Below are positions 34,032-62,132 of a stretch of DNA of 64,000 nt, one piece after another (position 1 is the first letter of the stretch; each line of letters starts with the position of its first letter). The stretch covers positions 55,888,761-55,952,760 of the forward strand of contig OZ024869.1 of NCBI GenBank assembly GCA_964017185.1. Direction: 5' to 3'. Made by a program: the position numbers and the translations under genes. This DNA comes from Rugalucina vietnamica. Lineage: Eukaryota; Mollusca; Bivalvia; Lucinida; Lucinidae. The notes beneath the pieces were generated by a model. The model ran no database searches, was not told the origin of the DNA, and saw only the letters and a program-made list of their open reading frames with translations.

Positions 34032-34903
34032 TTATAAATAAATGACTTGATACTTAATTTCCTTACAAATGTTACACATATCAAACTTCCTACACTTAAG
34101 GCATCTAAATCTTGAGCCAATAATGGATTGGCGGCATACGTTACAGATGATCATACCATGGTGAAAATTCTTAGGAATTCGCCCCATCTCTAGCTTTGTA
34201 AATGTGTACCCCGGGTGCTGCTTAATTTTTGTCTTGCAATTTTCACAATAATTCCACCGGGGGTATTCGAATCCGTCACACGCGTAGCGAAATTCATAGA
34301 CTGTGGGCACTCGTTAGAACCGCCTCTGCGAGGCGGTTCTAACATGTACCCACAATCTATGTTTTGGAGCAAAAATAAGAAAAATAGGTATACCCCTGTA
34401 TACTCCATTTTACTATATACAAGTGGGGCATAAGAGGGTATTTATTTCACGGACTTGTTTTCCTGATGAGAACAACGAATTCCAAGACGTGCGTCGGTTG
34501 TCGCCACAAGTTTGAATTAAACTGTCCCATATTACTGTTAATCGAATATGCCCATGCTTGCTATGTTTTCAACAAACATTTTCGGGAGTCCCGAAACTTC
34601 TGCTATGCCAAGCGACTCATTAGATTCTATAATTGGTACACATTTTTCCACAACAACAATGTGCCCTAGCATTTCTATAGGTCGATTCTTGAGAACTCTA
34701 TCTACAGCACCAGTTTCTATAAACTCAATGACCGCGGTCCTGTCCTCCTTATTCAGCGTGATGTTTTAACCAACCCTCCTCCTTGGCCCTTTGTATACTC
34801 GAAGAACATCTGCAAATACCTTTATCAGCTAAATGAGGAAGTAGCTTTACAAGTAGATGGTTAGACGTCTTCCTTTCATGCAGTGTGTTGTACCTACAGT
34901 CAC
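34032..34903 (-). pseudogene. RRM-ZZ family copy A, degenerate, MITE-interrupted
   Basis: On the minus strand an acceptor-like TTGCGTTTGTTTAG precedes GDCRYNTLHERK and NHLLVKLLPHLADKG, which align with the start of exon 2 of copies B and C. The RRM then continues in other frames (MFFEYTKGQGGGLVKTS, stop, then NKEDRTAVIEFIETGAV and DRVLKNRPIEMLG), so at least two frameshifts and a stop break it. A GTTAGAACCGCCTC repeat (34310-34460) follows, and then the ZZ part: CENCKTKIKQHPGYTFTKLE, ICNVCRQSIIGSRFRCLKC, DMCNICKE. The second ZZ lacks the final H...H and ends early. No exon 1 was found. I call it a pseudogene; a shortened ZZ-only product of about 90 residues cannot be excluded. Confidence 0.7.
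34310..34460 (+). repeat. GTTAGAACCGCCTC hairpin repeat, copy 2
   Basis: GTTAGAACCGCCTCTGCGAG then GCGGTTCTAAC is a near-perfect hairpin, followed by ACCCACAATCTATGTTTTGG, AGCAAAAATAAG, TATACCCCTGTATACTCC and ACAAGTGGGGCATAA. It separates the RRM remains from the ZZ remains of the copy A pseudogene, so it probably inserted into that gene. Confidence 0.7.
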
Positions 34904-34924
34904 CTAAACAAACGCAAATTATAA

Positions 34925-35139
34925 AGAGCCGCAACGCAAGAAAACCGGTCTTCGGGGTTCCCTACCAGGTCCGACATAAACCGAGCTGTACAAGCACAGA
35001 AGATGGCTAGAGGCTGGAAATTTGGATTTAGAAAGTAGAGGAATTGTACTATCCGTGTAGCGAAAACAAAGGCGCTGATCTGCGTCTTTGTTTTCGCATA
35101 GGCAACAATCTGTTGTTGCTTTTTTCATGACGCGGCTCA
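34925..35139 (-). mobile_element. MITE of the TGAGCCGCC family, copy 3
   Basis: Ends AGAGCCGCAACGC and GACGCGGCTCA are inverted. The middle has CAAAGGCGCTGATC and TGCGTCTTTGTTTTCGC, a shortened version of the family hairpin. TA occurs next to the right end. It lies immediately upstream of the RRM-ZZ pseudogene's exon 2 on the minus strand. Confidence 0.75.
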
Positions 35140-37984
35140 TATAAAGATATAGAAAAAGACAAAATGATATTGTAAAACACAAAGGTTAGTTTACTGTGCA
35201 GTTTAGGGCAATTTTAGTATTTTAGACATTTTAGTATTTTTACAATTAGTCGAAATCGCTATTACTTTCTCAGGCGATAGCGTGACTACTGTGTCCGCAC
35301 ATTACGTAAACTTGTTTATGAACATATTTATACGACCATTCTCCCGCTTCCCCTGATCCAAGATCGGTAGTCTAATGAGCATAACAGAAACAAAATATGC
35401 AAATGAAAGACGTAGTGACAAAACAAAGCAATGGGGGAAAGCTTATTACCAACATTCATTCAATTTCATTGCCTATAATTAAGGGAAGCTACTCTTGCAA
35501 TACTTATGAGAATTCCAATTTGATTTATGTAACTTTGGTAAGTCACTAACACTAAGAAAACCTGCCCATGGAATAAATAGAATGTTTTCAGCTGTAAAAG
35601 AGTGAAGATTTCACCAGAAAAGAAATAGATCTTTAATATGCTAGCCCAAAACACAGGCAGCGGGTACACATTAGAACCGCCTCACCGAGGCGGCCCTAGC
35701 GTGTAACCACAATCCAAGTTTCGGAGCAAATATAAGAAAAAAACATGATTATGCACCTACCACTTTCACTATACGAAAGAGGGATATGATGGGATATACC
35801 CATGGACAAGTTTTCCTGATGTTAACGTCCATTGTTTGGCATATAACAGTCATCATACATGTATAAATAACAAGACCAAAAGATATAGATTAATGAGCAA
35901 AGCATTATACTGCATGTCACTAATGAGCCCAGTTTAATCTGTACTTTTAATCTATACTTCTTTTTGTTTCTTAAATTTGACCGTAGGCAGTTCTAACGTG
36001 TACACACTCAGATATATTTTTTCTTCAATTTTTAAAGCTAAAGAAATCTCTGGGTAACACATTTTCGTAATGGTATGCAACATACAAACACACTGAAAGA
36101 CACATGCGTCAGAGAAGGTTAAAATTTTCGTATTTTCATGTACCATAGACCCCTAGTGTGTACATGTATATTACCGGTTCCCTTTTTTTTTCATTCATAT
36201 GAAATAAATGAATCATACAAAGTGCCAGTTTAGGGACAAGCATACAGTTGGGGGCATGGTGTTTTACAAACACGCATTTCTAGTTCTCTTTTTTTCAGGT
36301 CAATCAGTCATACAGAGTCTGTAGACAGTTTACTATCTGACATGAACACATGAAGGAATTTGTTTGATGGGTGGCACAGATGTAGTTAATGGGTAAGAGC
36401 ATGTTGGAAAGTGAAGATGGTTGTCACGATTGGGATCTTGACATTTTTTATTTTATTGATTTTTGTAGATAGTTTACGGTATTGCTGTACTAACAGTATA
36501 GGTGAAATATGGTAATAGCAGTTATTCAACTGTGACAATGGTATTAGGCAAAGTGTGAACATTTTTTGTTGCTGAAAGGCTTAGTGAGTTCAGTTTGTCT
36601 AGTACAGTTAAATTGTTCAGAAAAGACTTTGTAACAAAGCTATAAGGATGTGTTGAATTTATGGGAAATATATTTTATGGAATAAAGTTTGACAGAGAAG
36701 CTGTAAGTACCAATATATTTCATTTCATTTGCTGCTCTTTCTGGAAATATTCTGATATTTGATTTTAATTTGCAAATTTGGAATTTCCATTTTTGTATAG
36801 CAGTTTCAAAAATATTTACAAGGCAACCTTTTATTATAGGTGGCCTCTTACCAGATTGGTTCAACATATTTATGGCAACTGACGTGTGATGCAGTCCAAT
36901 AGAAGTGCAGCATCTGAAATAGAACTGATGATTGGTTATTTGGGACTATTCTGGAGAATCGTTATGAAATGATAGATATCGTATTATTCACAAATCAAAT
37001 GATAGATTCATAAGTTATGATGGCCCGTGAATATATAATATTCATATAGTTATAAACTGTGATAGGACACTTCTAGTTCACCAGTGGTATACAGTACAGC
37101 CGCCGCGAATTATGGATAGTTCAATGGTTGACTTTTGAAATTGAGTAGAATTGACTGTGATAGGACACTATATAAGATTTACGGATTTTATGAAAACATT
37201 TCGATACTGCGGAAATTCTGATATCGCGTGTATAACAGAAACAGAGACGGTTCACACAACAAACAAGTAGTTTAGACCAATATTACGGGATTTTGATATT
37301 TTCAGAAACTGAATGAGAAATCAGTAAATAATAATAATGGGAAGAGATATCGACTATTTGCTAATTGACTTAAACGAGTGCTTTAGCAGATTTTATTATT
37401 AGATGGTGCAGATTGATCAAGTTTGAACAATTGGATGAACATTGACTGAATCTAAACTGAACTTTGATTCTATGCCAATAAGATGTGTATTTATATTCAT
37501 ATAGTAACAGGATAATTTTCTATGTGATGCTTGGTGGTCTTTGTGGTAATTGCATGGATTATAGGGCATTATAATCAGAATATGCAATATTATCTTAGTG
37601 GTGTCTTAGTGGTGTCTTAGTGGTATATGAATTGTAGCAGTACACATAAATTAGCATAGAGAGGTGATAAATCAGTTGGTAAATAAGTCATTGTTATATT
37701 TCTGAGCTAAATTATAGATGTTGAATAGTCTTAAGTAGGTCACCGTGAGATAGGTTTTGATTATCATAGTGTTTAAGAATAAGCTTGGATGGTTAACTTA
37801 CTTATTTTGCTTAAACATTAAATCAAAACTGGACAGAGAACTTGAAGTTTAATTTACATACCCTTAAATCAGATTTATATATTTGTTTCCCATAACCTGC
37901 ACGTGACAATGGTCATGAAGTTTATTTATTGGTGAAATATAGAGCAACAAGTTTATAGTTCTATATCAGATTCTTTTTATAAAG
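35140..37984. other. No gene; one G-family hairpin repeat at 35665-35820
   Basis: Around 35665-35820 a copy of the GTTAGAACCGCCTC repeat is present (TTAGAACCGCCTCACCGAGG, CCACAATCCAAGTTTCGGAG), with another fragment near 35985. The remaining 2.5 kb is AT-rich with no domain-like frame. Confidence 0.45.
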
Positions 37985-38270
37985 AGGCAAAAGTGGGCAA
38001 TGGTCATGAAATGGCACAACTGGAAAGAAATTCCCACCCAAATTGGAAAAGACTAAATTGACAATCAGGTACTTGTACCAAGAAAGCATATGGTAAGCGA
38101 ATGAGCAGCTGCTTCCAAGGTGGTCACTCAGCAAATTGAACTTAACTAAAAATATGAAAACATGCATAAAGAGCAAACAGCACATAATGTGAACCAATAA
38201 CCATAAACAATTAGAACCACAACAGAAGTATGGCCTTTGAACAATCAGTATAGTAATATAAAATGTTTGG
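37985..38270 (+). repeat. Dispersed 600-bp repeat, partial copy 3
   Basis: GAGGCAAAAGTGGGCAATGG, ATGAGCAGCTGCTTCC, GGTGGTCACTCAG, AAACAGCACATAA and CAACAGAAGTATGGCC follow the order of the 10.9 kb copy; the second half is missing. Confidence 0.65.
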
Positions 38271-38763
38271 AAACCACCTTTTGTATTTCACCTTCTTCAG
38301 AAATAGTTACTGACAAATATAATTCACCAAACTGCCAATGTATCTGAAAATGGTTATCAAATAATCAGTAAAGGCTAAAAGTGAGCTTAACCATGCATCT
38401 TATATATATAAGGGAGGTAATCTAAATACATGCATATTGACAATGTTATAGGAAATTTCAGGACTCCATTCAAATGTTAGCATCTCATTTAATGGGACCT
38501 AATGATGAAAGGCATATAGCAAACATATCGTACAGGACCTAAGGGGACTGGAAGTTTGATATTTTGTGGCATCATATTAAATGAAGCATTTGATAAAAAT
38601 CTTTTTGAAAAAAATAATGGCATGCTACTTTAGTCTTAAATTATAAACAAATACATGTAGTTACAAAGAACTTCTGCAAAGGTAGGTATATTGATATAAT
38701 GTACATGTTCATGACATTTGTAAACTCTTTAGCTGTAGTTTTAGTAACTTTTACTGTTTTATA
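38271..38763. other. No gene recognised
   Basis: AT-rich sequence with a short TATATA tract; no repeat partner or coding signal found. Confidence 0.4.
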
Positions 38764-38994
38764 TGAGCTGCCTTGTATAAAAAGCAACAATGTGGTTTCC
38801 GAACAGGCCTGACACAAACCGACTTGTACAAGCACAGACAAGAGCTAGAACGTTGAAATTTCAGATTTCAGTAGAAGAAGAATTGTACTATCCGAGTAGC
38901 GAAAACAAAGGCGCCGATCAGCAGTAACTGCGAAGCTGATCTGTGCCTTTGTTTTTTACTATAAAGATTGTTGTTTTTCCCATGTGGTGGCTCA
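38764..38994 (-). mobile_element. MITE of the TGAGCCGCC family, copy 4, TA-flanked
   Basis: TGAGCTGCCTTGTATAAAAA at the left and TTTTTCCCATGTGGTGGCTC then A at the right are inverted. TA flanks both ends (38762-38763, 38995-38996). The hairpin word GGCGCCGATCAGC recurs in altered form. It sits directly against the EF-hand relic. Confidence 0.8.
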
Positions 38995-39004
38995 TATATT
39001 CCAG

Positions 39005-39178
39005 AGGCTTTCAATTTGTATGACATTGACAAGAATGGTTTTATCACCATGAAGAAGATGACTGACATCATTGATGCTATTTCAAGCATGGTTGAGAACA
39101 CAAAGATGAAGATATGCCAGAGAAGAGAGTCAGGAAGAGGTTTCTCTCAGATGGAAATGGTAAGCTTTTGTCAAAGCT
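39005..39178 (+). pseudogene. EF-hand exon relic, neuronal calcium sensor (NCS-1/frequenin) like
   Basis: After TATTCCAG the frame reads AFNLYDIDKNGFITMKKMTD then IIDAISSMVENT, matching the third EF-hand and following helix of frequenin/NCS-1-type calcium sensors. The calcium loop D-I-D-K-N-G-F-I-T-M-K-K has Lys where the family needs Glu at position 12. About 30 codons in, similarity jumps to another frame (MPEKRVRKRFLSDGNGKL, like the PEKRVDRIF...DGKL region), implying a frameshift near 39110-39118. The fragment is squeezed between a MITE and a dispersed element, and no other EF-hand exons are visible. I treat it as a decayed gene fragment. If the first frame were used, it would end at ATG|GTAAGC near 39158. 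Confidence 0.55.
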
Positions 39179-39930
39179 TATCAGCTCACCTGAGCTGAAG
39201 GCTAATGGGGAGCTTATAGGATGGTACTCAAGCCGGCATCCCTGCATGTGTGCGTTCACATTTTCAAAGATTTTCTTCTCTGAAACAGCTTGACCAATCA
39301 AAGCCAAATTTCGTATGAGCATCTATAGGATGTTGGGACCAAAGTCCAACGTCTATATAAATAATTCAGGTCACATGACCAAGATGCTCAACTTTGCGTG
39401 AAGCATGAATCACTAAAGTACTACAAAGTATATATAAATCATGACCCTGTTTAGACCTTGGCATATTTTACTGCAAGATCATCATAGGTCGCTTATGCAT
39501 TTGAATGGGGAAAACTGGTTAAATGTCATTTAAAAAGAATATCTTGCATGGAATGGGCAGCAGGACTGAATATAAATGATTCTGATAACTTTCCACCCAC
39601 AGGCTCATCTGCCCCTCCCCCCATTTTGTGAAGAAGTAGGACTGAATATCAATGATTTTAAAAAAAAGATTAGACATCAGGGGTTCATCTGCTTCCACCT
39701 GGGGGCAATATTATGTATACAACCATAACTTTTAAACCTCTTCTCTGAAACTGCTTGGCTTATCAATGCCAACTTAAAGGAAGTGGGAACCAATGTGTAT
39801 ACAAAAATCCTGGTCAAGATGGCTGCCATGCCCATGCATGGTAAAATCCACGACTTCTTTTCTTTTGTCCATTGAATGTATTTTTTGACTCTCAGGAGAG
39901 CGTTCATTGCATTTGGGCTACTTGTTGAGA
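39179..39930 (+). mobile_element. GCTCACCTGAGC element, copy 2
   Basis: It opens ATCAGCTCACCTGAGCTGAA and GGGGAGCTTATAGGATGG, and closes GGAGAGCGTTCATTGCATTT then GGGCTACTTGT, as in the copy at 5896-7407. The interior is shorter and lacks the 325-bp array, holding instead words like CTTCTCTGAAACTGCTTGGC twice. Confidence 0.65.
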
Positions 39931-42567
39931 TTCCTAATTCCTATGAGTGAGTTACTTGATTCTAAAGCACCTTTAAATATTTTTCACAAGGGGTTTTGCT
40001 TGTATTTCAGACAGGATGTAGCTGCGATGTCAGGCCAAAACTAATATCATATACTAACTCCGCTTTTAATCTCAACTGAAAAATTGTAAAAACCTGTTTA
40101 AAGTCATATTGATTCCTAATTTGATTAGAAGAAGAGTGTCAATACAAATGCTGTAAATGCCATGTACAGATAATTTTGAGCCTGGGTCAAAAGTTAGAAA
40201 GTCCAATGGATAGACACTCAAAATTAGTAACTTTTTAATTTCAGGCTGGAGAACATTTTTCTGTTTCCTGCAATTATAATGTTGCAACTTCATGGTAATA
40301 TGTTTGATTAGCACACAGGTAAACCCAAGAACAGCCCTAAATCAGCAAATCTTTTATTGGTATGTAGATTTGCTCAAGAAAATATTCTTCCTCTTCTGCT
40401 CATACAAATGTAACATTTGTCTGTTGTGAAAGAAATTTGCATTAAACACTAGTAACCTGCCTATGGGAAGCTAACCTGTGAACTGGAGGGTTTATAGGAT
40501 AGAATGGACCTTAGCTGTTTACCATGGGCGACCGGTAAAGTATTGTAAGCCAAATGAGCAGCTATTTTCCCAATAGGTGGCCACTCAGTTACCTTAACTA
40601 AAAATATGAAAACATACATAAGGCGCCAACAGCACCAAAAATTTTAAACACCAAGACATAAAACAAAAAGAACCACCACAGAAGTATCTAAAATCTTCTA
40701 CTCCAGAGCTAGTGCACCAGTTTCAACAGAACTTGGGATGTTGCAGGCGGAAAGAATCTATGCTTATAAATTACGACTTTCACTGTCATTGACCTACTTC
40801 AGGCAATAGTGAACTCTAGGTTCCCTGGGCATTTGGTTTGGGAAAACTGAAGAAAATGTCATTGAGAGGGAAAATCTTGCACAAAATTAGCAAATTAACA
40901 GAATATGCTGCATGAGTCTGACCAACAACAACAACAACAAAAAAAAAAAAAGGATCCCAAGAATGTATCTGTCAGCACCTTGGATTTATATACATGCATT
41001 TGACCATTTATAGTATTCATACATGTTTTAATATTGTTATACATGTATATACCAGACCTCAGGTTATCATTTACTAGACCATTGACCCTTTCGTTTCAGA
41101 GAACCTGTCAGTCTCAAATTAGGCCAGTTCCTTCAACCACCAGCTCATCAACTCAGGCAGTGCTAAATGCAGAGATAGTCCTTGGAAAAGATGACTGAAA
41201 GAAATTACTTTGTCATTCATGGAATTTGATGATAATTTTCAAAATTTGTTGAGCTCATTGGCTTGAAAATGACAAGTATACCAAAAACCATGACAGTTTT
41301 AGTAAATGGTGAAAAAATATGAATTGAGATGGACTGCAAACATAACTGAAACAGTAAGAGTGTATGATGAGAATGCTTCAGACAACGCGGCTATTTTTGG
41401 TCTACACATTAATGTCCAGTACAAAAGAAAATATTGAAATGCTGAAATGCTCAGTTTAAGTAAATGATAAATGGATACTGTGTCATTTTCTTATTAAAAC
41501 CGGCAATGTCTGTGATATTGAACTCTAAAAATCTGATTACATATCATACCATTCTTCACAGAACACATACAGTATTTTAAAAAAGGTACAAGTAGGCAAA
41601 GATCAGGAAAAGGCACAATCAGAAAAAGAATCCCACTCCAAAAACCCGAAGTGGGAAAAAACCAAGCTAACAATCAGGTACTTATACCATGAAAACATTT
41701 CGTAAGCCGAATGAGCAGCTATTTTCCCAATAGGCGGCCAATCAGTTAAAGTAACTAAAATATGAAAACATACATAAAGCGCCAACAGCACAAAAGTATT
41801 AAACACCAAGACATAAAACAAAAAGAAGCACCACAGAAGTTTGCATCTGAATCTGAATGGTTTACCAGTGACTCGCCAAATTGACAATACTTCACTAGGG
41901 GGTGCACCAGGAGGGACATCAGTCCAACACATATGCCAACTCAAAAACAAGTTCTACCTCAACTGAGCCAAAGACTCACTGGTGAGCTAATAGGTGCTAG
42001 TTAAGCTAAAAGGATTGGCATGTCATGGCGTCAGTCGGCTTTGTCAATTTTATTTGTACACGATAAATGAAAATCTCCTCTAAACCTCATGGTGTATATT
42101 AACCAACTTTCAAATCGAAATCTTATTCCAATTTGTTACAACGTTTCCCACAGTAACATCTTAGAAATGTCTAAGAAACAAAATTTGACATCGCCACAAA
42201 ATGAGTTAAAGTCATCGTTGGATCAAATAGTGACTGCTTTCCCAGTTTTGTTTGGTTTACTTTAGTTAAATGATAGCTTATTTAACTTTCCAGTCAAATT
42301 ATTTTGTCATAGTGAGAAGCCACTACTTTCTGGGTTATAAACTATGTCAAATCTGCCTTCGTTTCTAAAAACTTTCTAGTAATATGATGGAGATAATTCA
42401 TTTTGCATGTAGCAACGCCATATATAATATGAATACTTCATATTATATTTTTCTTGTTCGAGGTGTATGAATTTGGTAGGTTTTACGGCACATCCGTACC
42501 AGCATTACCCCGAGTTGTCCCTCAAACCCCTAAATGAAAGGGATGGCGTTTTAAACAAACAAACAAA

Positions 42568-42603
<36 letters not shown>

Positions 42604-44441
42604 CCGTATAAAGTGTTGTTGTTGTTTTTTTTTACTGAAAATGGGTAATCTAATTTGGAATGGACTACCAAAAAGGGCATTTATCGCGAGACATACACAA
42701 ACTGTCTAAATATCATTATGGGAGTACCACCCCCGGGGCTAATTGTATACAGTGGTCGACGAAGCATTTTGAGTTTGTAGTTTTGTATCACACACACACA
42801 CCTCAAATGATTTTCAAAGCGATATAAATTGGCCACTTCTGGCTGCTGCTGGCGTTAGTAGCTGAGACCCTCTCGTGAAAGGCTTACTCTTGTCAGCCTA
42901 GGAAATTTCCTGAATCCACACCTGCTGACTGAAGTCAACTCAGTGCTGTCACATCATTACTGTCACGACCGTGACAGCACTGATCCGTGACAGTACTGAG
43001 TTTCACACAGAAATTAAATTCTAATGACTAACAGCAGAATGCAGGATGAAACTTTGCATGTCTATTCTAACTGCTCCTAAGTTGAAATTCAGTCATGGTT
43101 TTAAAATGTATGTGATATTTGCAAGAAGCGGCAAAATGCACGTGATAGGACTGATGCTTGTAAAATTCCCACTCCAATTTTGACATTTCTTTATGGTATA
43201 GGAACGGAGTAATGCGATTTGTTAAAAAGTTTTTTACCATTACTTCTTCAGCTTGGTGTCGTCTTCAAAACGCGATTGTTTTGATCTGAGAAAATGATTC
43301 GTAGCTCTGGTCAAAATCAATTTTCAATAAATGTGACAGCACTGATACGTTTTCCAGGGACAACACTATATATGTGCCCCCACTCTTAAATAACACTTAA
43401 TATATCACATGGTTTCTGAATTTGACTTCAATAACATCATATGCAATAGATGGTCACAGAAAATGTGATTTCTGTAAAGCTTCTTTTGCAATGGAAACGA
43501 TTAAAACTACTTACCCTGACCCTGGGACACGGTAAAAATCGATAAAATAGCACTTCTACCATCTCTTTTTTACAAATAACATACTCGGAAACGTGAAATC
43601 GCGTGTGGTTCTAGTAAAGCACCGCGGATAATAATATTATACATGGAAAAAGCAAACCTCGGACATCGCGCTTGCGAAAAAAACATCAGGGACAAGGATT
43701 GCTCCATTTTTGATAATGACCCATACATGTATTATGTCAATCATGCAAACACTCTGTACTCATCAACGGATAACCCTCATGAAAACATAATTGCGAAATG
43801 CAAGAACCTGAGCAAAATAAGAGTACACATCAATTAACATATTTTAGAGTGTGAACATGTATATCCATAGTCAAATCATTTTTAAGAAAATAAAATGTTA
43901 TGGGTCAATGTACACTTTAGAACATCTGGTTGATTTGTCACAATCAGTTGTACTTTGTCACTATCCTCTAAATAACAATACATTTGCTCATCTGAGAATG
44001 TATTTTACAATGAGCAAACACAAATACAAATTTATGTGTATTTCATTCGATTAAAAGTTATTTTACAACTATATTGAAGGTTGTTGTATTGAATTTACGG
44101 AAAATATATTTACAGGGGGCATAACTTATTTTGACCAGTTTATATTATACTCATGATAATTGGTAATGACTGAAACTGCAAGAATCATGTAAAGAGTGGA
44201 TTCAAGAATGCTATACTGCCATCGATGCTAGGTCATAAGTTCAGTTATTAAAAATTTATGGAATATTATTTTCTCTGTGGGTTACATGTAGGCAAGTGAT
44301 ATTGTATTCGGAAATTTTCATTTGCCATGATAGCTGCATATTAAACTTATCAATGTAATTTAATAGGAATTTATGATAATTATATATACATACAGTGCTA
44401 GCGCGATAGAATGACCGTCAAGTGAAAAAACGTACGGAAAA
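39931..44441. other. No confident gene; repeat fragments, A run and small palindromes
   Basis: Partial copies of the 600-bp repeat lie at about 40530-40690 and 41588-41845, and a GCTCACCTGAGC fragment near 41957-41990. A reading of 32 codons at 41099-41197 after TTTCGTTTCAG ends KDD-stop and would be phase-compatible with the EF-hand relic, but has no recognised motif. An A run of about 40 bases lies at 42571-42600. Near 42935-42990 the words CAGTGCTGTCAC and GTGACAGCACTG form a small palindromic cluster. Near 42460-42515, GGCACATCCGTACCAGCATT resembles an end of the G-tract transposon. Confidence 0.4.
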
Positions 44442-45497
44442 ATGGATAAAGATACGATACCGACGAATAAAAACTACTCATTGTCATCCAGTACCAAACA
44501 GACAAATGACACAGAGACATCATCTCTATATTTTGCAAGTGATTTGGAAACAATATCAACGTTTATGATCAGAAACATCCCTCCTGTATTATTCTGTATA
44601 GGGGTAACTGGAAATATTTTAACTATTTTGATTCTAAGCAAGAAAAGGAACCGCGTTACGTGTACAGCAGTGTTTCTTACTTTTCTGGCGGTGTCAGATA
44701 TCATAATTCTCTTGACGGGAATACTAACCCATTGGACTTGGGTTGTATGGAATTTTGATATCCGAACAACACATGAAATAGTATGCAAGATACATGTTGT
44801 GTTGACTTATTACAGCATTCATTTTTCTTCTTGGATTCTCGTTCTTATAACATGTGAACGCACTGCATGTGTTGTTGTCCCTCATAAAGTTCAATTAATG
44901 TTCAGCAGACGAAAAGGATTAACGCTTACCACCGCATTAGCTGGAATACTTTTTATTTGTAATTCTCACTTTTTCTATGGAGCAGGTATTTCCAACATAA
45001 TTTGGCATGGTAAAAACTCATCGATGTGCATGAGCACAGGTCCAAAGGCCTATGAAATATTTATTCAAAGAATTTGGACATGGATAGACCTCTGTCTGGC
45101 TTTTTTGATTCCATGTGCGTTAATTGTTACTGGAAATGTTCTCATACTGCTCCAATTGTCAAGACAGTTGAAGCAACGCGAAGAACTGGGGAGAGCAAGA
45201 CAAAATCAAAGTAGCCAGCATCTAACACTATTATTGCATTTACTCACAATTGTTTTTCTAGTGAGTGTGGCTCCATACGCCATATTTAACATCATTATGT
45301 CATATCTTCTAGAAAATGCAACTGATGTGCATGACGAGCTAGAAAAAATGGACTATATACTTCAAATTCTAACGGTGACGGTCGCACTAAACCCAACGTT
45401 AAATTTCTTCTTATATTTTCTCAGTGGATCAAAGTTTAGAAGGGAAGTGAAAACATTTATTTTCTGTCAAGATGGTCGCGGAGGTAGTGTCTTTTGA
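44442..45497 (+). CDS. Class A (rhodopsin-like) G protein-coupled receptor, intronless
   Basis: An uninterrupted frame of 351 residues with seven hydrophobic segments, roughly residues 46-67, 77-97, 115-138, 161-182, 212-238, 262-285 and 305-328. TGNIL in helix 1, FLAVSD in helix 2, CERT at 138-141 in place of the usual DRY, and NPTLNFFLYF at 317-326 are class A hallmarks. Cys115 and Cys196 can form the conserved extracellular disulfide. N-terminal NYS and NDT are possible glycosylation sites, and basic residues follow helices 5 and 7. The form resembles invertebrate peptide or FMRFamide-type receptors, but I cannot assign a ligand. The start ATG follows a short AT-rich leader, and AATAAA at 45642-45647 could direct polyadenylation. 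No homologous neighbour is seen. Confidence 0.88.
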   Translation: MDKDTIPTNKNYSLSSSTKQTNDTETSSLYFASDLETISTFMIRNIPPVLFCIGVTGNILTILILSKKRNRVTCTAVFLTFLAVSDIIILLTGILTHWTWVVWNFDIRTTHEIVCKIHVVLTYYSIHFSSWILVLITCERTACVVVPHKVQLMFSRRKGLTLTTALAGILFICNSHFFYGAGISNIIWHGKNSSMCMSTGPKAYEIFIQRIWTWIDLCLAFLIPCALIVTGNVLILLQLSRQLKQREELGRARQNQSSQHLTLLLHLLTIVFLVSVAPYAIFNIIMSYLLENATDVHDELEKMDYILQILTVTVALNPTLNFFLYFLSGSKFRREVKTFIFCQDGRGGSVF

Positions 45498-45641
45498 AGC
45501 ATTTTCCTAACCATTTTCCTAACCTTACAGGATGAGTCTATTTGGAGTTGTAAGAGGTCAGCCTCTAATGTATGTTTGTCGGTTTGTGTACCATACACTC
45601 CTGATTCGGAATGGTCATATACTACTACGTAAAAGTGAATG

Positions 45642-45647
45642 AATAAA
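45642..45647 (+). terminator. Possible polyadenylation signal of the GPCR gene
   Basis: AATAAA lies 145 bases after the stop codon of the receptor. The spacing is plausible for a 3' UTR. No downstream GT-rich element was verified. Confidence 0.4.
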
Positions 45648-45689
45648 CACTGAGTAGTGAAGTAAATTGTGATTAAGATAAAACAAGGA

Positions 45690-46140
45690 CCTGATATGAT
45701 TTGTGCTGTTGACGGTTAACTTAAGCCTAATACGAGAAACTAACGCAGTCATACATTAGAATATAAGACTAACGCGAGCCAGGCGTGTTTTGCTAAACGT
45801 CAGCGCGCGTTCCAGGCACGATTTTTAAGCACGCTACAACTTTCTAGAAGCTCGGCGTGTCTCAGGCTTTTGTCTTATACGTTACGAATAAGTTCAACAC
45901 ACATTACGGGTGCGTTGAATACGCTTTGAATGTGATGTCTGTTGCACGTTTTAGGCTACATGTGCACTCTGTTTTGACGAGATACATGTATTGGTTTGGG
46001 CGCTTGCCATACGCTTCAGTAAGGTGCTCTTAGCGTATATATGACGCGCGTTTAACGTTTGATACGTGTCTGAAGCGTGTGCTTAACGTGGATGGGACGT
46101 AACACAAACGGTACTCCAAAATAACTAGCGTGTTGAGAGG
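45690..46140. repeat. Region rich in ACGCG/GCGTG words, related to the 55.7 kb MITE
   Basis: Starts near TAACGCAGTCATACATTAGA, similar to the GCAGTCACAC end of the element at 55665-56317. It is filled with words such as GGCGTGTTTTGCTAAACG, GGGTGCGTTGAATACGC and CTGAAGCGTGTGCTTAACG. The opposite end is not recognisable, so this is probably a truncated relative. Confidence 0.5.
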
Positions 46141-46385
46141 TAACAGAGTTGTAGAAATGATAGAAAATAAGCAACATGTACCTGAAAACACGGTAAATGA
46201 ACCAGTCTTGATGTTAAACTCACGGTCGCTGTTACTTAGACTGAAGCGGTTTGGGGCGGTGATTTCACCTTATTTTATACCCTTTGATTTAGGTTTTGAA
46301 CTATCGTAAGACATACCATAAAAGCAAAATTAAGACATTTACTAGTACATAACATGTGCTATGATGTACTTTAGGACAAAGGCAT

Positions 46386-46560
46386 GTGAGCCGATGCATG
46401 AGAAAACCAACAATTTAGGATTCCGACAAGGTCCGATACAAACCGGCCTGAACAGTCACAGAAGCAGGTTAGAAGCTTGAAATTTCGGATTTAAGAAGAA
46501 GAGGGATAATACTATCCGTGTAGCGAAAACAAAGGCGCTGATCAGCTGTGCAGTTACTGC
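46386..46560 (+). mobile_element. MITE of the TGAGCCGCC family, copy 5, truncated
   Basis: TGAGCCGATGCATGAGAAAA and CCAACAAT at the left are followed by the family middle (TAGCGAAAACAAAGGCGC, TGATCAGC). The right half beyond the hairpin is lost. Confidence 0.65.
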
Positions 46561-48121: not shown

Positions 48122-50080
48122 TCAAACTATCTCCACAAACATGTGGTTGCTTGGGTGTGGCTGTGTTGATTTACAGGCCGCACAAAAATAAAAATTAGGG
48201 CAAATGATACATCTAAATCTGTTTCCTACTATTGGCCTTATCTGGCATCCATTGCACCAGATATTTTCATGAACACTTCGTAATGGATCGTTATCTGGCG
48301 AAATGTTTGTGAAAACATGGCCGTCAAGGTGACGTTTTCTGTACAAACATGGTTTGCAATAGTAGAAGTCATCACAAGAACGGCATTTGTATTTCGCTGC
48401 AGTGACTGCGGTTCTGCATCCCCAACAAAATACTTTGCCAGGAATATTTAGGCGATTTACAGGACATTGTTGGGCTGGATCTGTCATCTTAACTGTGGCT
48501 AGTTCATTTGACAAAGGCCTTAGATATCCATAGAGATGTATAGCTTCGATGGTCTCGTCATTTTCTAGGTAAGGTGTGTAGGCTTCTACCTCGACCGGCG
48601 TTCCTTGGATTTTGATTGGCTTTTTATCTAAAACCTTCGTGACTGAATCGGCGTTCTCAAATTCTATGATCGCCACTTTGTCGGACTTAATCAGGATGAC
48701 GTGTTTGACTGGACCACCACCTTGTCGTTTCGTGTGTTCAAAAAACATCTCCAGTAGTTCTTCATCTGCCGTGTCAGGTAGATTTTTGACAAGTAAGCGT
48801 TTAGTTGTCCTATCCAATATTTGTGGATGTGGATCACAATCTGTGTAAAAGTACAGTGATAGATGTTGTATTATTTTCCCAATATACATCACCAGCTGAC
48901 CATGCCTTATTCTATATTATGCCAACATACCATACATACTTTACACTAAGCTGATAAAAGCATCTAATCTGCTGATGAGGTTCATGTACATGTATATCAT
49001 AATATATATATTTCAAAATATAGATATTAACCTTTTTAATCTCATCAGACTTTATAAGTCTATGAATATGCATGAGCATATCAGTAACTGCACATAATGT
49101 ATTTGGAATTAACATATGCTTGCGTATGGGGTATTATAAGTTTATACAATGTATTTAAAATTATACTGGCGTAACCGAACTTCGAGGACATAAGCACATT
49201 AGGTTTCCCTGATTTCTATAAATAACATCAAAAATATAAATTAAGAAAAAAAAATATTTCTTTAATATCAAAGGAACAAAATGCCAACAAAAAATCAGAC
49301 ATAACTTTAAAACTGTAACCAGAACGTATAAATTTTTCCAGTGACCCAATTTATTTGCCATTTTGTAAACACTCAAAACGTTCGAGGACCCGGATGTATT
49401 GAACTTTAAAGAGGCACCATATGGGGCAGAAAGAAAATTATGGTGAACAATTAAAAACAACATATCAAACCATTCAATTTGATTATAGTAACTTTGTTAT
49501 ACATTTTATAACTTTCAGACATGAGGGCAGGAAAGGGTTAGTGAAAATGGCTCATTTTTAACACTTTTAAATATTTTGATCAATAGTCAAATTGATTCCT
49601 CTGATTGGAATTTTAATGACTGGTTTTTCAAAAAGAAAGACTTGACTGCCTTTCTGACACGTGTTTTTGGAGCAGAGGGCAACAAAGGTATTCCGATTAT
49701 ATGACAACAAATGACGTCATCGAACTAATTGTATCCTCGAAGTTGACTAAAAACACCTTATGTTACACGTTACGCATCTGTTCAAAGAGGATAATGTTTC
49801 TGTGAAAGAAAGAAGATAAAATGGTAATGAAAGACAAACACTCCTAAAATTGAATACACAAATAATCATAACATGAAAAACTACCTGTATTCTGCCCAGG
49901 ACCGAGCGTCACAAACAACGTTGCGGGCTTTCCCTGCTCGTGCTGTATTTCAGCCGACATATCTTTCGAATCTGTGAGGCATTGTATAATTTTATCTTTC
50001 AAAGCCACCAAGTGATCATCGGAAATCTTAGTTTTAAATCCTTCATCACTATCAGACGTAAAATCCGTCTCGCACGCCAT
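48122..50080 (-). CDS. RRM-ZZ family copy B: PARP10/14-like RRM plus two ZZ zinc fingers
   Basis: Exon 1 (50080-49885) and exon 2 (48840-48122) join across AATACAG|GTAGTT and TTTTACACAG|ATTGTG in phase 1, giving 304 residues. Residues 1-65 are acidic (TDFTSDSDEG). Residues 79-158 form an RRM-like fold: RLLVKNLPDTADEELLEMFF, EHTKRQGGGPVKHVILIKSD, VAIIEFENADSVTKVL. The FFEHTKRQGGG pattern resembles the RRMs of PARP10/PARP14. Two ZZ-type fingers follow: CWGC...KCRSC...YYCKPC...H...H (about 205-250) and CNGC...RFRCIIC...FYFCAAC...H..H (about 262-301). No PARP catalytic, macro or WWE domain is present. I infer a protein that binds RNA or protein through the RRM and zinc-stabilised ZZ modules; its role is unknown. 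Two paralogues lie in the window on the same strand. Confidence 0.8.
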
Positions 50081-51987: not shown

Positions 51988-54558
51988 CCTGACGAACACT
52001 GGCATCTCATAGACTATGTCATAGTGCGGAGAACAGACAGGCAGGATGTTAAAGTGACAAAGACTATGTGTGGTGCAGACTGCTGGACAGATCATAGACT
52101 GGTTGTCAGCAAACTCAACATAAGAATACAGCCTGCGAGGCGACCTCAAGGCAAGAAAGCTCCTAAGAGACTGGATGTCTCAAAGCTGAATAAAGACAGC
52201 ATGAGACAAGATTTCTTAACAGACATTTGCAACCAACTGGATGCAATGAATCTCAGTTCAGAGGACCCCGAAGAAAACTGGACAGTTTTCCATAAAACAG
52301 TTCTTTCTTCAGCTGCAAGCACCTTAGGCCATCCATCTCGCAAACATCAAGACTGGTTTGATGAGAATGATGATGAAATTCAGAGGCTTCTTGAAGAAAA
52401 GCACCGTTTGCTCAAGGCACATCAAGATGATACTAGCTCAGTATCAAAGAAAGCAGCCTACAGCAACATTTGTAAGACAGTCCAGACCAAGCTTAGGGAC
52501 ATGCAAGATTCCTGGCTGAGGAAGAAAACAGAAGAAATTCAGTCTTTTGCGGATAGAAAGGACATGAAGAAATTTCATGATGCACTGAAAACCATTTATG
52601 GTCCAAAGAGTTCTGGAGCCACCACATTGCTCAGTGCAGATGGAAACACTCTTCTCACAGATAAAGAAGCTATCTTGGAAAGGTGGGCAGAACACTTCAA
52701 TAGTGTGCTTAATCGACCATCAAGCATCAATCAGGATGCAATCGACAGACTTCCACAGATAGAGTGCAATGTTCTGTTAGATGAATTTCCTACCGTTACG
52801 GAAACAAGAAAAGCAGTTCAACAACTATCATCTGGCAAAGCCCCAGGTGCAGATGCAATTCCTGCCGAAGTTTACAAGGCTGGGGGGCTACCCATGGCAG
52901 AGAAACTGACAGAGTTGTTTCACTGTATGTGGAGGAAGGAGGCTATCCCACAAGAATTTAAGGATGCATCCATAATCCACCTATACAAGCGGAAAGGAAA
53001 TCCTCAAGTCTGTGACAATCACAGAGGCATCTCCCTCCTATCAATTGCTGGGAAGATACTTGCAAAAATTCTGTTAAATCGTCTGAATGCTCATCTTGAT
53101 CAGACGGGACTTATCCCAGAAAGTCAATGTGGATTCAGAAAAGACAGAGGGACAATAGACATGATCTTCACAGCAAGACAGCTTCAGGAGAAATGCCAAG
53201 AACAGAATGTAGATCTATACATGACGTTTGTTGACCTCACCAAAGCTTTTGACACTGTTAGTCGTGATGGACTCTGGAAAATCATGGCCAAATTTGGCTG
53301 TCCACCCAGATTCATAGCTATGGTGCGGCAGTTTCATGATGGCATGCAGGCACGTGTGCAAAATGATGGAGAGTTCTCTGAACCATTTGAAGTAACAAAT
53401 GGGGTCAAACAAGGCTGTGTTCTGGCACCAACACTGTTCAGCATGATGTTTTCTGCCATGCTTATGGATGCTTTTCAGGACAGTGACACTGGTTTTCCAA
53501 TCAGGTACCGTTTTGATGGCAACATATTCAACCTCAGAAGGTTGCAAGCCAAAACTAAGGTCCAGACTGATGTGCTAGATGAGCTCCTCTATGCAGATGA
53601 TATGGATAAGAATGCCAACACGGAGGCAAATATGCAAAGAGCCATGGATCAAGTCTCACAGTCATGTGATAACTATGATCTCACAATCAGCACAAAAAAG
53701 ACAGAGGTTGTACACCAACCAGCCCCCGGAAAACCATATAATGAACCAACCATCACTGTGAATGGGCAAAAACTGAAAGTTGTTGACAAGTTCACCTACC
53801 TGGGAAGCACTCTCTCCAGAGCAGTGCATATTGATGATGAGATCACTGCCAGAACTGCAAAAGCTAGTGTGGCATTCGGAAGACTCCGTGCAAATGTCTG
53901 GGAGCGAAATGGAATCAAGCTTGACACCAAGCTGAAAGTCTACAAGGCTGTGGTACTGCCAACCCTCTTGTATGCATGTGAGACCTGGACAGTATACCAA
54001 CGCCATGCAAAGAGACTTAACCATTTCCACTTAAGCTGTTTGAGAAAGTTGTTAAAAATCAAGTGGCAGGACAAGATTCCAGACACAGAGGTCCTGAGGA
54101 AAGCAGGGATGCAAAGCATGCATACAGTCTTAAAGCTAGCACAGCTAAGATGGACTGGCCATGTTATAAGAATGCCTGATGCGCGACTTCCAAAGAAAGT
54201 TTTCTATGGAGAACTACAGGAGGGAAAGCGCTCTCAAGGTGGCCAGAAGAAACGCTACAAAGACACCCTCAAAGCCTCTTTGAAGGATTTCAAAATACCA
54301 ATGGGGTCCTGGGAACAGACTGCACAGGAGCGATCAAAGTGGCGAGGTCTCATCAACAAAGGAGCAGCTCTCTATGAAAAGAAGAGAATCTGTGAAGCTG
54401 AAAGAAAGCGAAGAGAGCGTAAAGCCAAAACAAATGTGCCACCAGCAGACTCTATGACATTGACTTGCTCTACTTGCAACCGACAGTTTAGAGCCAGAAT
54501 TGGCCTAGTCAGCCATCAAAGAACTCACCAACACACATCAGCACAATTCAAGAAATAA
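51988..54558 (+). CDS. LINE reverse transcriptase ORF, endonuclease mostly missing
   Basis: The open frame runs from just after a stop at 51985 to 54558. There is no ATG at its front; a GTG at 52024 begins the 844-codon stretch used here for numbering. It starts with the end of an APE-type endonuclease (LIDYVIVRR, DHRLVVSKL near residue 20). The RT domain follows at about 265-600: SGKAPGADAIPAEVYKAGG, HRGISLLSIAGKILAKIL, FVDLTKAFDTVSRDGLW, NGVKQGCVLAPTLFSMMF and the catalytic LLYADDM near residue 522, all intact. FTYLGSTLS and LLYACETWT mark the downstream part. A C2H2 finger CSTCNRQF...HQRTH ends the protein. No frameshift or stop interrupts it, so the copy is young or its RT still evolves under constraint. 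Without the endonuclease it is probably not self-mobile. Confidence 0.88.
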   Translation, partial: PDEHWHLIDYVIVRRTDRQDVKVTKTMCGADCWTDHRLVVSKLNIRIQPARRPQGKKAPKRLDVSKLNKDSMRQDFLTDICNQLDAMNLSSEDPEENWTVFHKTVLSSAASTLGHPSRKHQDWFDENDDEIQRLLEEKHRLLKAHQDDTSSVSKKAAYSNICKTVQTKLRDMQDSWLRKKTEEIQSFADRKDMKKFHDALKTIYGPKSSGATTLLSADGNTLLTDKEAILERWAEHFNSVLNRPSSINQDAIDRLPQIECNVLLDEFPTVTETRKAVQQLSSGKAPGADAIPAEVYKAGGLPMAEKLTELFHCMWRKEAIPQEFKDASIIHLYKRKGNPQVCDNHRGISLLSIAGKILAKILLNRLNAHLDQTGLIPESQCGFRKDRGTIDMIFTARQLQEKCQEQNVDLYMTFVDLTKAFDTVSRDGLWKIMAKFGCPPRFIAMVRQFHDGMQARVQNDGEFSEPFEVTNGVKQGCVLAPTLFSMMFSAMLMDAFQDSDTGFPIRYRFDGNIFNLRRLQAKTKVQTDVLDELLYADDMDKNANTEANMQRAMDQVSQSCDNYDLTISTKKTEVVHQPAPGKPYNEPTITVNGQKLKVVDKFTYLGSTLSRAVHIDDEITARTAKASVAFGRLRANVWERNGIKLDTKLKVYKAVVLPTLLYACETWTVYQRHAKRLNHFHLSCLRKLLKIKWQDKIPDTEVLRKAGMQSMHTVLKLAQLRWTGHVIRMPDARLPKKVFYGELQEGKRSQGGQKKRYKDTLKASLKDFKIPMGSWEQTAQERSKWRGLINKGAALYEKKRICEAERKRRERKAKTNVPPADSMTLTCSTCNRQFRARIGLVSHQRTHQHTSAQFKK

Positions 54559-58230: not shown

Positions 58231-59323
58231 CCATTTGTCTTCTGGTTCTTCTTTGTCTGTATATTTTGGCCAGAAATTCATCATGCTTTTTTGGACTTTA
58301 AACATACACAGCGTTAATAAAGCAGACTTATTCTTGAGTGGCTTTATTTCGATTTCGATTATAGAAAGGAGATTACTGTAAAGTAATGTGGATAATGTGT
58401 ATATTTTAATTTCAGCTCATTGGTGATAAGTGATACGCTGTAGGCAAGTTGGCTCTCGCAACGTTGGTCTGCGTTTTCAGCATTTAGAGTATGTAAGGTG
58501 TCCCTTTAACTTGAAAGACATAGAATATAGCATTAGCTTGTAGTGATACATAGGCATCGTCGTTAATACAATGTTTCATTTTGACGGCAGCATTAAACTT
58601 TCAAACAAACATTTCTTGCACATTTTGCGCGCGGTAATATGGCGACACATTTGTCAAAAATTCTACGTGTTGCGTATTTGAATAGTTTAAGAGTTCGTAT
58701 GTGTGACGTTGCTTTGAAAATAAATGACTAATTATGTCGAAACTCAGCCGATAATAACGATGTCAGTTGCCATAATCTTTCTGAAATTAATTTTGTTGCC
58801 CATAAATCGTGCAAAATCATATACTGTCATAAAGCATATATTTTCGTTCATTATCCACGCTGTAGCAGTTATGCAACTCTATAAATTGGGTTCGCCTGGG
58901 ACTGACTTTTTCTTTATCTCGTCAATAACAAAATGACAGCATTATTATTATTATCATAATTATTATGATTTGTATTGAACAAGGTCAATTAGTATGTACA
59001 ACTTGGAGATATTTTATCAACGCATAAAAACAAGGAACTTTTGCGAAGCTGAAATGTTGAAATTTACATACCGGTCCCCTACACAAGCCAACTATGCAAA
59101 ACAGTCGCTGTCATTACTGACCATACATAATAAGATCTAGGTTGCTTATTAGTCATTACGCAAACTTAATTCGTTTGCATAAAACGGGAAGAATTGTAAC
59201 AACAATTTAGGCTTTCATGTTTTGTAATGTCTTGTTTTGGTTCCCACCTGGTGTCTATGGGTTGGAATTTTTAATTTAATTGTATAAATTCCTGTCCTAA
59301 TTTTGACAAGGAACGCTGTTTTT
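58231..59323. other. No gene recognised; 3' flank of RRM-ZZ copy C on the right
   Basis: AT-rich DNA with a small TTATTA repeat near 58941. A degenerate word TTTTTAATTTAATTGTATAA near 59267 is shared with other places in the window. Confidence 0.4.
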
Positions 59324-60195
59324 TTAAAGTTTGAGGAAAGTATGCAATGGATTGTGCTTCTGTTTGTCCTTCTTTGTCATACACGCCGCACAATAATCAA
59401 AGCTAGGACAGTCCTTACACCTAAATCTCACACCCGCAATTGGTGTCGTCCGACAGCCATCACACCGGAAACCAATGTGTATAAAGTCTGGCGGATAATG
59501 ACCGGCATCTAACCTGGTGAACGTGTGCGATGGATCGTGCCGATTATTAGATTTACAGTTTATACATAAATTAAAGTCGGCAAAGCAACAATTGCATCTA
59601 AATCTTGGCCCGACTATTGCTTTTAATCCGCCGCAACCATTGCATTCAACACCATAGTGGATCAGTTTTGCTTTCTCGATCAATGGAAGGCTGATGGCTG
59701 GAGTAGGCCTGGGGTCACTTTTCTTAAGATCTGTAAGTTTCATCTCAGCAATAAATGTGGAAAGTTCTTTTGGTATCATACTCAATTCAATGGTTTGTAG
59801 CGATTCATCTCTATCCAGATATGGTTCGTACTTTTCCACCTCTATCGTTTCACCTTGCATCGTAATTGGTACTTTCTTAAGCACTTCATCAACCGATTCT
59901 GATTGTTCAAATTCAATAATAGCGAACTTATCTGTCTTGTAAAGCTCAACCTGTTTGACAGGACCACCACCTTGACGTTTAGTATGCTCAAAAAACATCT
60001 CAAGATACTCCTCGTCGGCAGTGTCTGGGAGGTTCTTGGTCAACAACTTTGTGTACCTACGAGAAATGGTCCTTGAAGTTATTGCAGTTTGGTCTGAAAA
60101 ATAAAATAAAATAAAAAAAGTATTAATAGCAAATGAATCACAGCGTTGACTAGCAATAATCTTTTAAGAAACATCACAATCACCACTAGCCGCAG

Positions 60196-60227
<32 letters not shown>

Positions 60228-60456
60228 ACAACGACGACGAATGACAACAACAGCAACAACTGCAGACTGCTGTACCTGTCTAAAGTCAAACGTTTCTACG
60301 GAGCGAGAGGGCTCAATTAGTAGCGTGCTCGATTTAATTTCTGCGGCCATTCCCCATCTGCCATCGATTCAGGAAGAGGTTTTGTCACTATTTAGTGGTG
60401 AAAGAAATACAAGCAAAATACTCAGTCTGGTAATATGCATCTGTGAGACTTGGAAC

Positions 60457-60570
60457 AGTTTGGTCAGGATAATTTATCGCTCGATATGACCATAGCCTTG
60501 AAACAGTGTGGTAAGGATGATTTATCGCCCGATATGACCATAGCCGTTGAGCTTGGGCGTAATTCAATAC
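60457..60570 (+). repeat. 54-bp tandem duplication in the intron of RRM-ZZ copy C
   Basis: AACAGTTTGGTCAGGATAAT then TTATCGCTCGATATGACCAT is repeated as AACAGTGTGGTAAGGATGAT then TTATCGCCCGATATGACCAT. CATAGCCGTTGAGCTTGGGC follows and returns again at 60698 after the ACT repeat. Confidence 0.6.
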
Positions 60571-60596
60571 TCGTGATAATAATAAGAATAGAAATA

Positions 60597-60597
<1 letters not shown>

Positions 60598-60638
<41 letters not shown>

Positions 60639-60697
60639 GTTACTACTACTGCTACTACTACTAACTACTACTACTACTACTACTACTTCTACTTCTA
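60598..60697 (+). repeat. ACT trinucleotide microsatellite 1
   Basis: Preceded by GATAATAATAAGAATAGAAA then TAACTACTACT, and flanked on both sides by CATAGCCGTTGAGCTTGGGC. Frames that read through it (poly-Thr, poly-Tyr) are artefacts of the repeat. Confidence 0.9.
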
Positions 60698-60749
60698 CAT
60701 AGCCGTTGAGCTTGGGCGTAAATTAATACTAAAGTCTGTTTCGTAGTGT

Positions 60750-61285
60750 GTGATAATGGTTTTTCGCAGATATTTTACAACTGTTTAAATGTAGAAGAAA
60801 TATTTTCTTGGCACAATTAAGCATCTAGTTTGTCGCAAAAGGTGCAGCAAAACTTTTGAAAATCGATTGACAAATAAAAAAGTTCTGGTCAAAAACATTT
60901 TTGAATAGGGATTTCCTGTACAAAATCTCATGGAAGGGAGGTAAATATTGTCCCGCAAAAAAATTTAAATTCTAACTATTTAATCATGACTGCTAAAAGT
61001 TATTATAAATTGACACAAATGACATACCTGAGACAAAATCTTCATGATCAGGTAAAAATTTTCGAAAAATATGCATTTTCACGATCATCGATTATCTCCC
61101 TTGTCAATGCAAAATGCCTGTGCAAAATTCATTTTGGCCATAAAAACTTCATTTGTTCACCGATTTTCGAAACTTTTGCAGGCCCTATTAGGACAAACAA
61201 AGATCAATATTTTGACATGAAAATAATTTTTCTGTCGTCCCCCATACAAAAATTTCTGCGAAAAACCATTATCAGAGGCAAGTTT
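60750..61285 (+). repeat. Dispersed 500-bp repeat, copy 2
   Basis: Direct relative of the sequence in cholinesterase intron 1 (14925-15425), at a guess about 70 percent alike by eye, here in the intron of RRM-ZZ copy C. It ends against the reverse copy of the 600-bp repeat. Confidence 0.7.
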
Positions 61286-61292
61286 ATAGACT

Positions 61293-61794
61293 TTAGGGAT
61301 CTCCATCGTCGGGCAGCTTACTGAATCTGTTGAGTCCTCGTTTTTGATTCATCATGATTTTTATCATGATTTATCTGTTTGATCTTGATGATTCATTGAC
61401 ATGTTAGAGATTCACCACGAGGACCGAAGAACTAACTAAATGTTATGAACCACTGCAGAAGCTGAGGGTGAGGTTAGGTACCTGTAAAATCGATTTAAGC
61501 CCGCCAGTAATTTTATATTACTGATCGTTCCAAGGCGACACTTCTGTGGTGGTTCTATCGTTTTATGTTTTGGTGTTTAATTTTTTTGTGCTGTTGGCGC
61601 CTTATGCATGTTTTCAAAGTTAAGTTTAGGTAACTGAGTGGCCACCTATTGGGAAAATAGCTGCCCATTCGGCTTACGATATGTTTTCATGGTATAAGTA
61701 CCTGATTGTTAATTTAATTTTTTCCCATTCCGGTTTTTGGAGTGGGAATCTTTTTCTGATTGCGCCTTTCCCTGATCTTTGCCTACTGGTACCT
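61293..61794 (-). repeat. Dispersed 600-bp repeat, reverse copy
   Basis: GGGATCTCCATCGTCGGGCA then GCTTACTGAATC at the left through TTTGCCTACTGGTACC at the right is the reverse of the copy at 16411-17000. Confidence 0.8.
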
Positions 61795-61796
61795 CA

Positions 61797-61819
61797 TGAT
61801 AATAATAAGAATAGTAATA

Positions 61820-61914
<95 letters not shown>

Positions 61915-61915
61915 T
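61797..61915 (+). repeat. ACT trinucleotide microsatellite 2
   Basis: Starts TGATAATAATAAGAATAGTA then ATAACTACTACT, nearly identical to the leader of microsatellite 1. It lies between the 600-bp repeat and the donor side of exon 1 of RRM-ZZ copy C. Confidence 0.9.
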
Positions 61916-62132
61916 AATATAACAATATATAATATTTCCTCACCAGGTTGAATACCAAATGCCATCACCAGTTTCGCCGGTTTTCCTGGTTCGTGCACGA
62001 TTCAGCTGAAAGATCATCCGTTTCATCAATCTGTTGTTTGAGCTTCTCTTTCAGATCCTTAACGTGTCTGTCAGCCAGTTTTACGGAGTATCCCTCATCA
62101 CTATCAGATGTAAGATCCGCTTCGCTCGCCAT

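Follow-up and report, generated by a model that had tools for sequence, protein, structure and literature searches.

What do the three copies of an RRM-ZZ gene in this stretch of Rugalucina vietnamica DNA represent, and what might their products do? The window (the whole stretch of 64,000 nucleotides, from contig OZ024869.1 of assembly GCA_964017185.1) carries three minus-strand copies, A, B and C, of a gene that joins a PARP14-type RRM to two ZZ zinc fingers, which a first-pass annotation had described as a family of three. The outer limits then given for the group, 34032 and 62132, are its true ends. When the exon-2 protein of copy B was searched against the window's own assembly (1.09 Gb, 47 contigs), at least 71 matches were found, at least 61 of them over the RRM (rows counted by us; some genes yield more than one, and both counts are lower bounds), which rules out three isolated genes. 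The window copies are one branch of a genome-wide family of RRM genes with different tails: the RRM-ZZ branch itself has at least five copies, and the same front carries other tails at many more loci. We read copy B and its relatives, with a probability of about 0.45, as non-catalytic intracellular adaptors in which the tail would grip a target peptide while the front would join a complex like that of PARP14 and DTX3L.

Copy B (48122-50080, minus strand) has two exons, is apparently intact and encodes 304 amino acids. Exon 1 (49885-50080, 196 nucleotides) encodes an acidic N-terminal module (MACETDFTSDSDEG...) and ends in a phase-1 donor. It joins cleanly across the phase-1 intron to exon 2 (48122-48840), which by open frame and splice reading holds the RRM, a linker, both ZZs and the stop codon. 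The open frame around exon 2 (48122-48916, minus strand) matched the third-RRM type of PARP14 in Pfam (RRM_PARP14_3, PF23085, 2.5e-18; RRM at 48563-48805) and, in two stretches, ZZ (PF00569, 1.6e-10). All eight ligands, three CxxC pairs and a final H..H, could be read in ZZ1 (48317-48427), and all eight likewise in ZZ2 (48143-48256), whose closest relatives in the PDB are the ZZs of HERC2 (2.5e-10) and p62. The structure model of copy B was poor overall (mean predicted local distance difference test score 58.8, compared with a better 79.9 for the family member L043). Foldseek placed it on PDB chain 5lxy_E, an RRM, with a TM-score (target) of 0.86 and a root-mean-square deviation of 1.7, in support of the RRM fold. 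Both domain assignments of the first-pass annotation were thus borne out, in copy C as well as in copy B.

To define the tails, open frames were read at the 30 best matches, and 20 further stretches were added. Among 29 family frames scanned with Pfam (the frame L045 of a broken B-like locus, L005, was left out, and L050 is cut by the locus edge), RRM_PARP14_3 was found in all 29, MIB_HERC2 in 18, ZZ in three and SH3_15, the SH3 repeat of Mind bomb, in one. A genome search with MIB_HERC2 gave 49 matches; by our comparison of places, 20 of these lie in one open frame with a family RRM, 17 of them above the cut-off. Scanned singly, the MIB-type frames have one MIB_HERC2 stretch each, where found, and those of L035 and L040 fall below the Pfam curated cut-off. 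The MIB tail of L043 matches HECTD1 (4.9e-12) and MIB1 (2.3e-10). The shared front of acidic exon 1, phase-1 intron and RRM can thus be followed by ZZ-ZZ, by MIB_HERC2, by a Mind bomb SH3-type tail, or by a coiled coil ending in a putative membrane segment. The RRM with an apparent coiled coil was read in L058 (3-1193), L065 (72-1094) and L070 (108-833); the coiled-coil Pfam matches of L058 are weak, and the ends of L058 and L065 are hydrophobic and by eye resemble a membrane helix. Longer frames were present at L047, L054, L060 and L061, with a weak PARP14 KH match in L054 (0.0044). At seven or more loci (L063, L064, L066, L069, L071, L072 and L073) the RRM match breaks off near the middle of the domain, which suggests a split by an intron; those of these loci that lie on contigs C2 and C13 have a PARP match 57-94 kb away. 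Between RRM and tail, short repeats (SSLPVASSVPIVPVV-like and EQPKQPDYRGQ-like) form long tracts in L050 and L068.

The RRM-ZZ branch comprises A, B and C, L013 on contig C6 (the C6 copy) and the broken B-like L005 (contig C1, 8.63 Mb). The second ZZ of the C6 copy has an open frame of its own some 2.5 kb further downstream, putatively joined by splicing. L042, L043 and L050 begin with a stretch that aligns to exon 1 of the B, C and C6 copies, here in one open frame with the RRM. L042, L043 and L050 group together in the RRM tree (98/91), and their lack of the intron is what retrocopying or intron loss would produce. A hidden Markov model of exon 1 was built from ten MIB-side loci, of which nine carry a MIB_HERC2 tail and one, L039, showed none. 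Run against 10455 frames, it recovered L047 (1.9e-12), B (2.1e-8) and the C6 copy (3.8e-8), with a weak match to C (0.0068). After these came L025, with the truncated end of its own exon 1 (0.01), and the best frame outside the family loci scored 3.1. All ten loci examined offer a donor following exon 1 and an acceptor ahead of the RRM, both in phase 1. We take exon 1 of the B, C and C6 copies to be kin to the MIB-side front because of this model, the position and the phase.

A tree was calculated for 41 family RRMs, in which the labels of L026 and L028 (MIB) and L046 (SH3-type) were assigned by eye. The ZZ, SH3-type, coiled-coil and KH-type tails need one change each. ZZ, SH3-type and coiled-coil loci fall on one side (99/96) and MIB and KH-type loci on the other, with the ZZ copies as a single group at modest support (67/88). 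The MIB rows need seven changes, because six frames without a visible MIB domain, labelled "short", fall among them; L036 and L038, two of the six, do have a MIB_HERC2 piece in a separate frame downstream, as the genome search showed. Tail type thus appears largely to follow the RRM tree, and frequent tail swapping need not be invoked, since the other four tail types arise once each. The ZZs of the family did not group with three Mind bomb-like ZZs of the same genome, in a weak tree with one starred branch in ten, calculated without L003, L007 and L008, which did not fit the search pattern; no clear origin of the ZZs from Mind bomb emerged there.

Synonymous sites are saturated between B, C and the C6 copy, indicating that these ZZ copies are old and ruling out a recent duplication of B and C. 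The nonsynonymous rate (dN) between B and C is 0.27 in the RRM and 0.67 in the linker plus ZZs, and residues 29-45 of the copy B exon-2 protein (LEMFFEHTKRQGGGPVK) are identical in all three copies. The rapid birth and death proposed in the first-pass annotation therefore holds in the ZZ branch for death, as seen in the broken copies, and fails for birth. Recent births sit instead in the MIB_HERC2 branch, at seven loci of contig C10 (L026, L028, L029, L031, L033, L034 and L035; 44.88-44.97 and 49.25-49.33 Mb) with a synonymous rate (dS) of 0.08-0.46. These young copies have near-identical RRMs and more divergent tails, MIB_HERC2-like in most.

The same asymmetry was found in codon counts from eight disjoint MIB-type pairs. 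Eleven pairs had been computed, of which L025-L030 and L027-L035 were dropped because they share members with pooled pairs, and L040-L048 was kept out of the pool because its members are not sisters and the RRM dS is saturated. In the pool, omega (dN/dS) was 0.17 (0.13-0.22) for the RRM and 0.72 (0.54-0.96) for the MIB tail (Fisher p 3e-13), with a tail dN about three times that of the RRM; single pairs ranged over 0.08-0.22 and 0.20-2.90, respectively. In the MIB-type family the RRM is constrained, and the tail is much less so.

The other two window copies are damaged. Copy C (59324-62132, minus strand) keeps the order RRM-ZZ-ZZ. Its frame 59324-60163 (minus strand) matched ZZ (1.2e-15, two stretches) and RRM_PARP14_3 (1.5e-15), and Pfam together with residue reading placed the RRM at 59813-60040, ZZ1 at 59525-59644 and ZZ2 at 59342-59464 of exon 2 (59324-60093). 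The zinc ligands are complete in all four ZZs of B and C. In exon 1 (61944-62132, donor placed by eye) the start frame hits a stop after 55 codons and the remainder is open in a different frame; with a frameshift between its first and last parts, copy C is not intact in this assembly. Copy A (34032-34818, minus strand) is a decayed fragment, with RRM and ZZ remains spread over three frames. By residue and frame reading, its RRM remnant (34541-34818) is broken by frame changes. The ZZ remnant (34032-34313; Pfam ZZ 4e-8) retains the end of ZZ1, most of which is gone, and a ZZ2 that has lost its final H..H. An inverted-repeat element resembling a miniature inverted-repeat transposable element (34295-34361; arms 34295-34326 and 34330-34361) sits at the break that separates the RRM remnant from the ZZ remnant. 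A RING model matched copy A at E 0.19, below its cut-off, and an exon 1 did not turn up in 34800-48100, where the best match had E 2.8. The exon structure that the copies had been said to share is thus common to B and C but not to A. The range from intact B to broken A stands, with the frameshift in C, not stated outright before, as a further step.

No ADP-ribosyltransferase (ART), macro or WWE domain was matched in copy B exon 2 (E up to 1), in its exon 1 (E up to 0.1), or in 26 minus-strand window frames of at least 75 amino acids touching 34000-59300 (E up to 0.01; frames with one residue at 30% or more were dropped beforehand), in agreement with what had been noted from the letters. Macro, WWE and KH were likewise absent from exon 2 of B and C, exon 1 of B and 60 frames scanned. 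The PARP catalytic matches (PF00644) nearest to the window, on contig C1, and to the C6 copy are 2.4 Mb and about 2.2 Mb away, respectively, which makes it unlikely that an exon with an enzyme domain was overlooked nearby. A viral origin was also considered and set aside: a scan of viral contigs gave two pattern matches, neither of them confirmed, and confirmed no relative.

Most family tails are domain types of ubiquitin ligases and adaptors: ZZ (HERC2, MIB1, p62), MIB_HERC2 and the Mind bomb SH3 repeat. ZZ, MIB_HERC2 and SH3_15 are Pfam families of Mind bomb (MIB1/MIB2), HERC2 and HECTD1, with which the RRM family has these tail domain types in common. Copy B differs from these proteins in having no ankyrin, RING or HECT, and each family frame read has one tail domain type. 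Mind bomb is built as MIB_HERC2-ZZ-MIB_HERC2 and also has ankyrin repeats and RING fingers; the order in B and C is RRM-ZZ-ZZ. In the adaptor reading, the tail would hold a target protein by one of its peptides and the front would dock into an oligomer or a complex like that of PARP14 and DTX3L, and the target might thereby be marked or sequestered; the driver of the family would be conflict with pathogens or mobile elements.

PMC13224862 gives PARP14 the domains RRM, KH, macro, WWE and ART; DTX3L, its partner, combines RRM, KH, RING and DTC and has no ART. B and C share the PARP14-type RRM with PARP14 and PARP10, but copy B has no KH run, macro, WWE or ART, and its RRM lies in one exon, whereas those of the half-matched loci above look intron-split. 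DTX3L, which the same paper ties to ubiquitin (PMC13224862), shares with the family a PARP14-like RRM front on a protein that has no ART, but KH, RING and DTC are missing from B, and the family tail is ZZ or MIB_HERC2. By analogy, the RRM family here would be a further enzyme-free variant of RRM-bearing adaptors of the PARP14/DTX3L type. A constant front with variable tails has been described for the lineage-specific DED-TRADD-N expansions of Crassostrea, some with RRM and PARP14-like parts (PMC8195603); copy B has no Pfam match to DED or TRADD-N, and the tails are different. The fixed front with alternative tails suggests a possible role in recognition or defence, and the defence role earlier proposed is plausible. 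A broader version would make the family a constant/variable intracellular recognition system, in which an RRM hub and acidic module on tens of loci, with diversifying tails that read peptides of pathogens or mobile elements, would feed an ADP-ribose/ubiquitin pathway, as an enzyme-free invertebrate counterpart of PARP14-DTX3L-PARP9; we regard this as conceivable though doubtful.

The alternatives turn on the binding surfaces and on the state of the ZZ branch. The proteins could be RNA-binding regulators that hold RNA with the RRM and bring in a partner with the tail. This would suit the RRM fold, which the structure models of B and L043 confirm. PARP10 and PARP14 RRMs are described as likely RNA readers (PMC10450202), and those of PARP14 are reported to bring PARP14 to nascent DNA (PMC12891911). 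The aromatics of the ribonucleoprotein motifs RNP1 and RNP2 speak largely against this reading: the RNP2 aromatic is present in two of the 41 RRMs, and that at RNP1 position 3 in six, although RNP1 position 5 is aromatic in 17, and copies B and C have none and one of the three, respectively. Because B lacks all three and has a weak Nmi/IFP35 domain match (0.061, below that model's cut-off), we infer that a protein-binding role is favoured for the ZZ-branch RRM. RNA regulators appear rather unlikely. Alternatively, these could be housekeeping adaptors for N-degrons or quality control, like p62 or HERC2, with expansion by drift and dosage rather than for defence. The p62 ZZ binds N-terminal arginine and requires D129, D147 and D149 (PMC6197226). 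Aligned by eye, the C6 copy keeps D,D,D at these positions in both ZZs, as a p62-like adaptor would, and the likeness of B's ZZ2 to HERC2 and p62 points the same way. The pocket is partly lost in B (ZZ1 W,D,Y; ZZ2 N,N,Y) and in C (ZZ1 N,D,N; ZZ2 D,S,D), so that, with one to three acidic residues gone per ZZ, these would bind something else or nothing. Adaptors of a housekeeping kind, moreover, do not usually occupy tens of loci with fast-evolving tails. p62/SQSTM1 itself carries PB1 and UBA domains, neither of which is present in B. We consider the housekeeping reading unlikely. Finally, the ZZ branch in the window might be mostly a graveyard of ancient duplicates decaying without function, with B merely unbroken so far. 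The broken state of A, C and L005 fits, but B and the C6 copy keep open exons and complete ZZ ligands in spite of saturated synonymous sites, and the 17-residue identity of B, C and the C6 copy is hard to square with decay, making this quite improbable.

The adaptor reading has its own difficulties, and several results count against it. RING, HECT, DTC and ART were all below cut-off in copy B and the family frames scanned, so any link to ubiquitin or ADP-ribose must run through unseen partners. Two of the three ZZ copies in the window are broken. The RRMs with an aromatic at RNP1 position 5, none of them of ZZ type, could bind RNA. Searched directly, exon 1 of L043 hits 26 sites in the genome but misses B, C and the C6 copy. 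The three unpooled pairs gave a tail omega of only 0.32-0.47. Positive selection on the tails did not hold up: for three C10 pairs, a first estimate of 1.9-2.0 fell to 1.52 (0.81-3.35; p 0.17) upon trimming of poorly aligned tail ends. A tail omega above 1 is not established, and L034-L035 alone supplies 36 of the 46 amino-acid changes in these pairs; what we retain is the difference between RRM and tail. Within pairs, RRM and tail dS are unequal (L049-L051, for example, has 0.47 in the RRM and 0.055 in the tail). Part of this probably reflects gene conversion or mosaicism, and gene conversion could mimic a constant RRM.

PARP14 and DTX3L stand where ADP-ribose and ubiquitin signalling cross, in vertebrate antiviral defence, and the function of the PARP14 RRMs is described as largely open (PMC13224862). 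Tens of genes with a near-fixed RRM and a changing peptide reader could reveal what a PARP14-type RRM does, and the family is a class of candidate invertebrate recognition genes. In a literature search on RRM, ZZ, PARP14, Mind bomb and MIB_HERC2 proteins, molluscs included, no RRM-ZZ or RRM-MIB_HERC2 protein was named among the matches listed.

Other genes with related domains were encountered in the same genome. Two neighbouring genes on contig C3 (65.47 and 65.50 Mb; L009:5576-6958 and L012:2349-3467) combine two ZZs with a caspase domain (Peptidase_C14, 6.7e-28 and 9.7e-25), and by eye the acidic triad is kept in the first ZZ of each. On contig C14 (50.34-50.39 Mb), three equal-scoring MIB_HERC2 exons lie near more MIB_HERC2 and ZZ matches, perhaps through recent local duplication. 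Within the window, a retrotransposon lies between copies B and C, with a reverse-transcriptase frame at 51988-54558 on the plus strand (RVT_1, 1.2e-33). The plus strand also carries a carboxylesterase exon (13360-14622; Pfam 2.9e-109) and a single-exon rhodopsin-type G-protein-coupled receptor (44415-45497; Pfam 3.1e-22).

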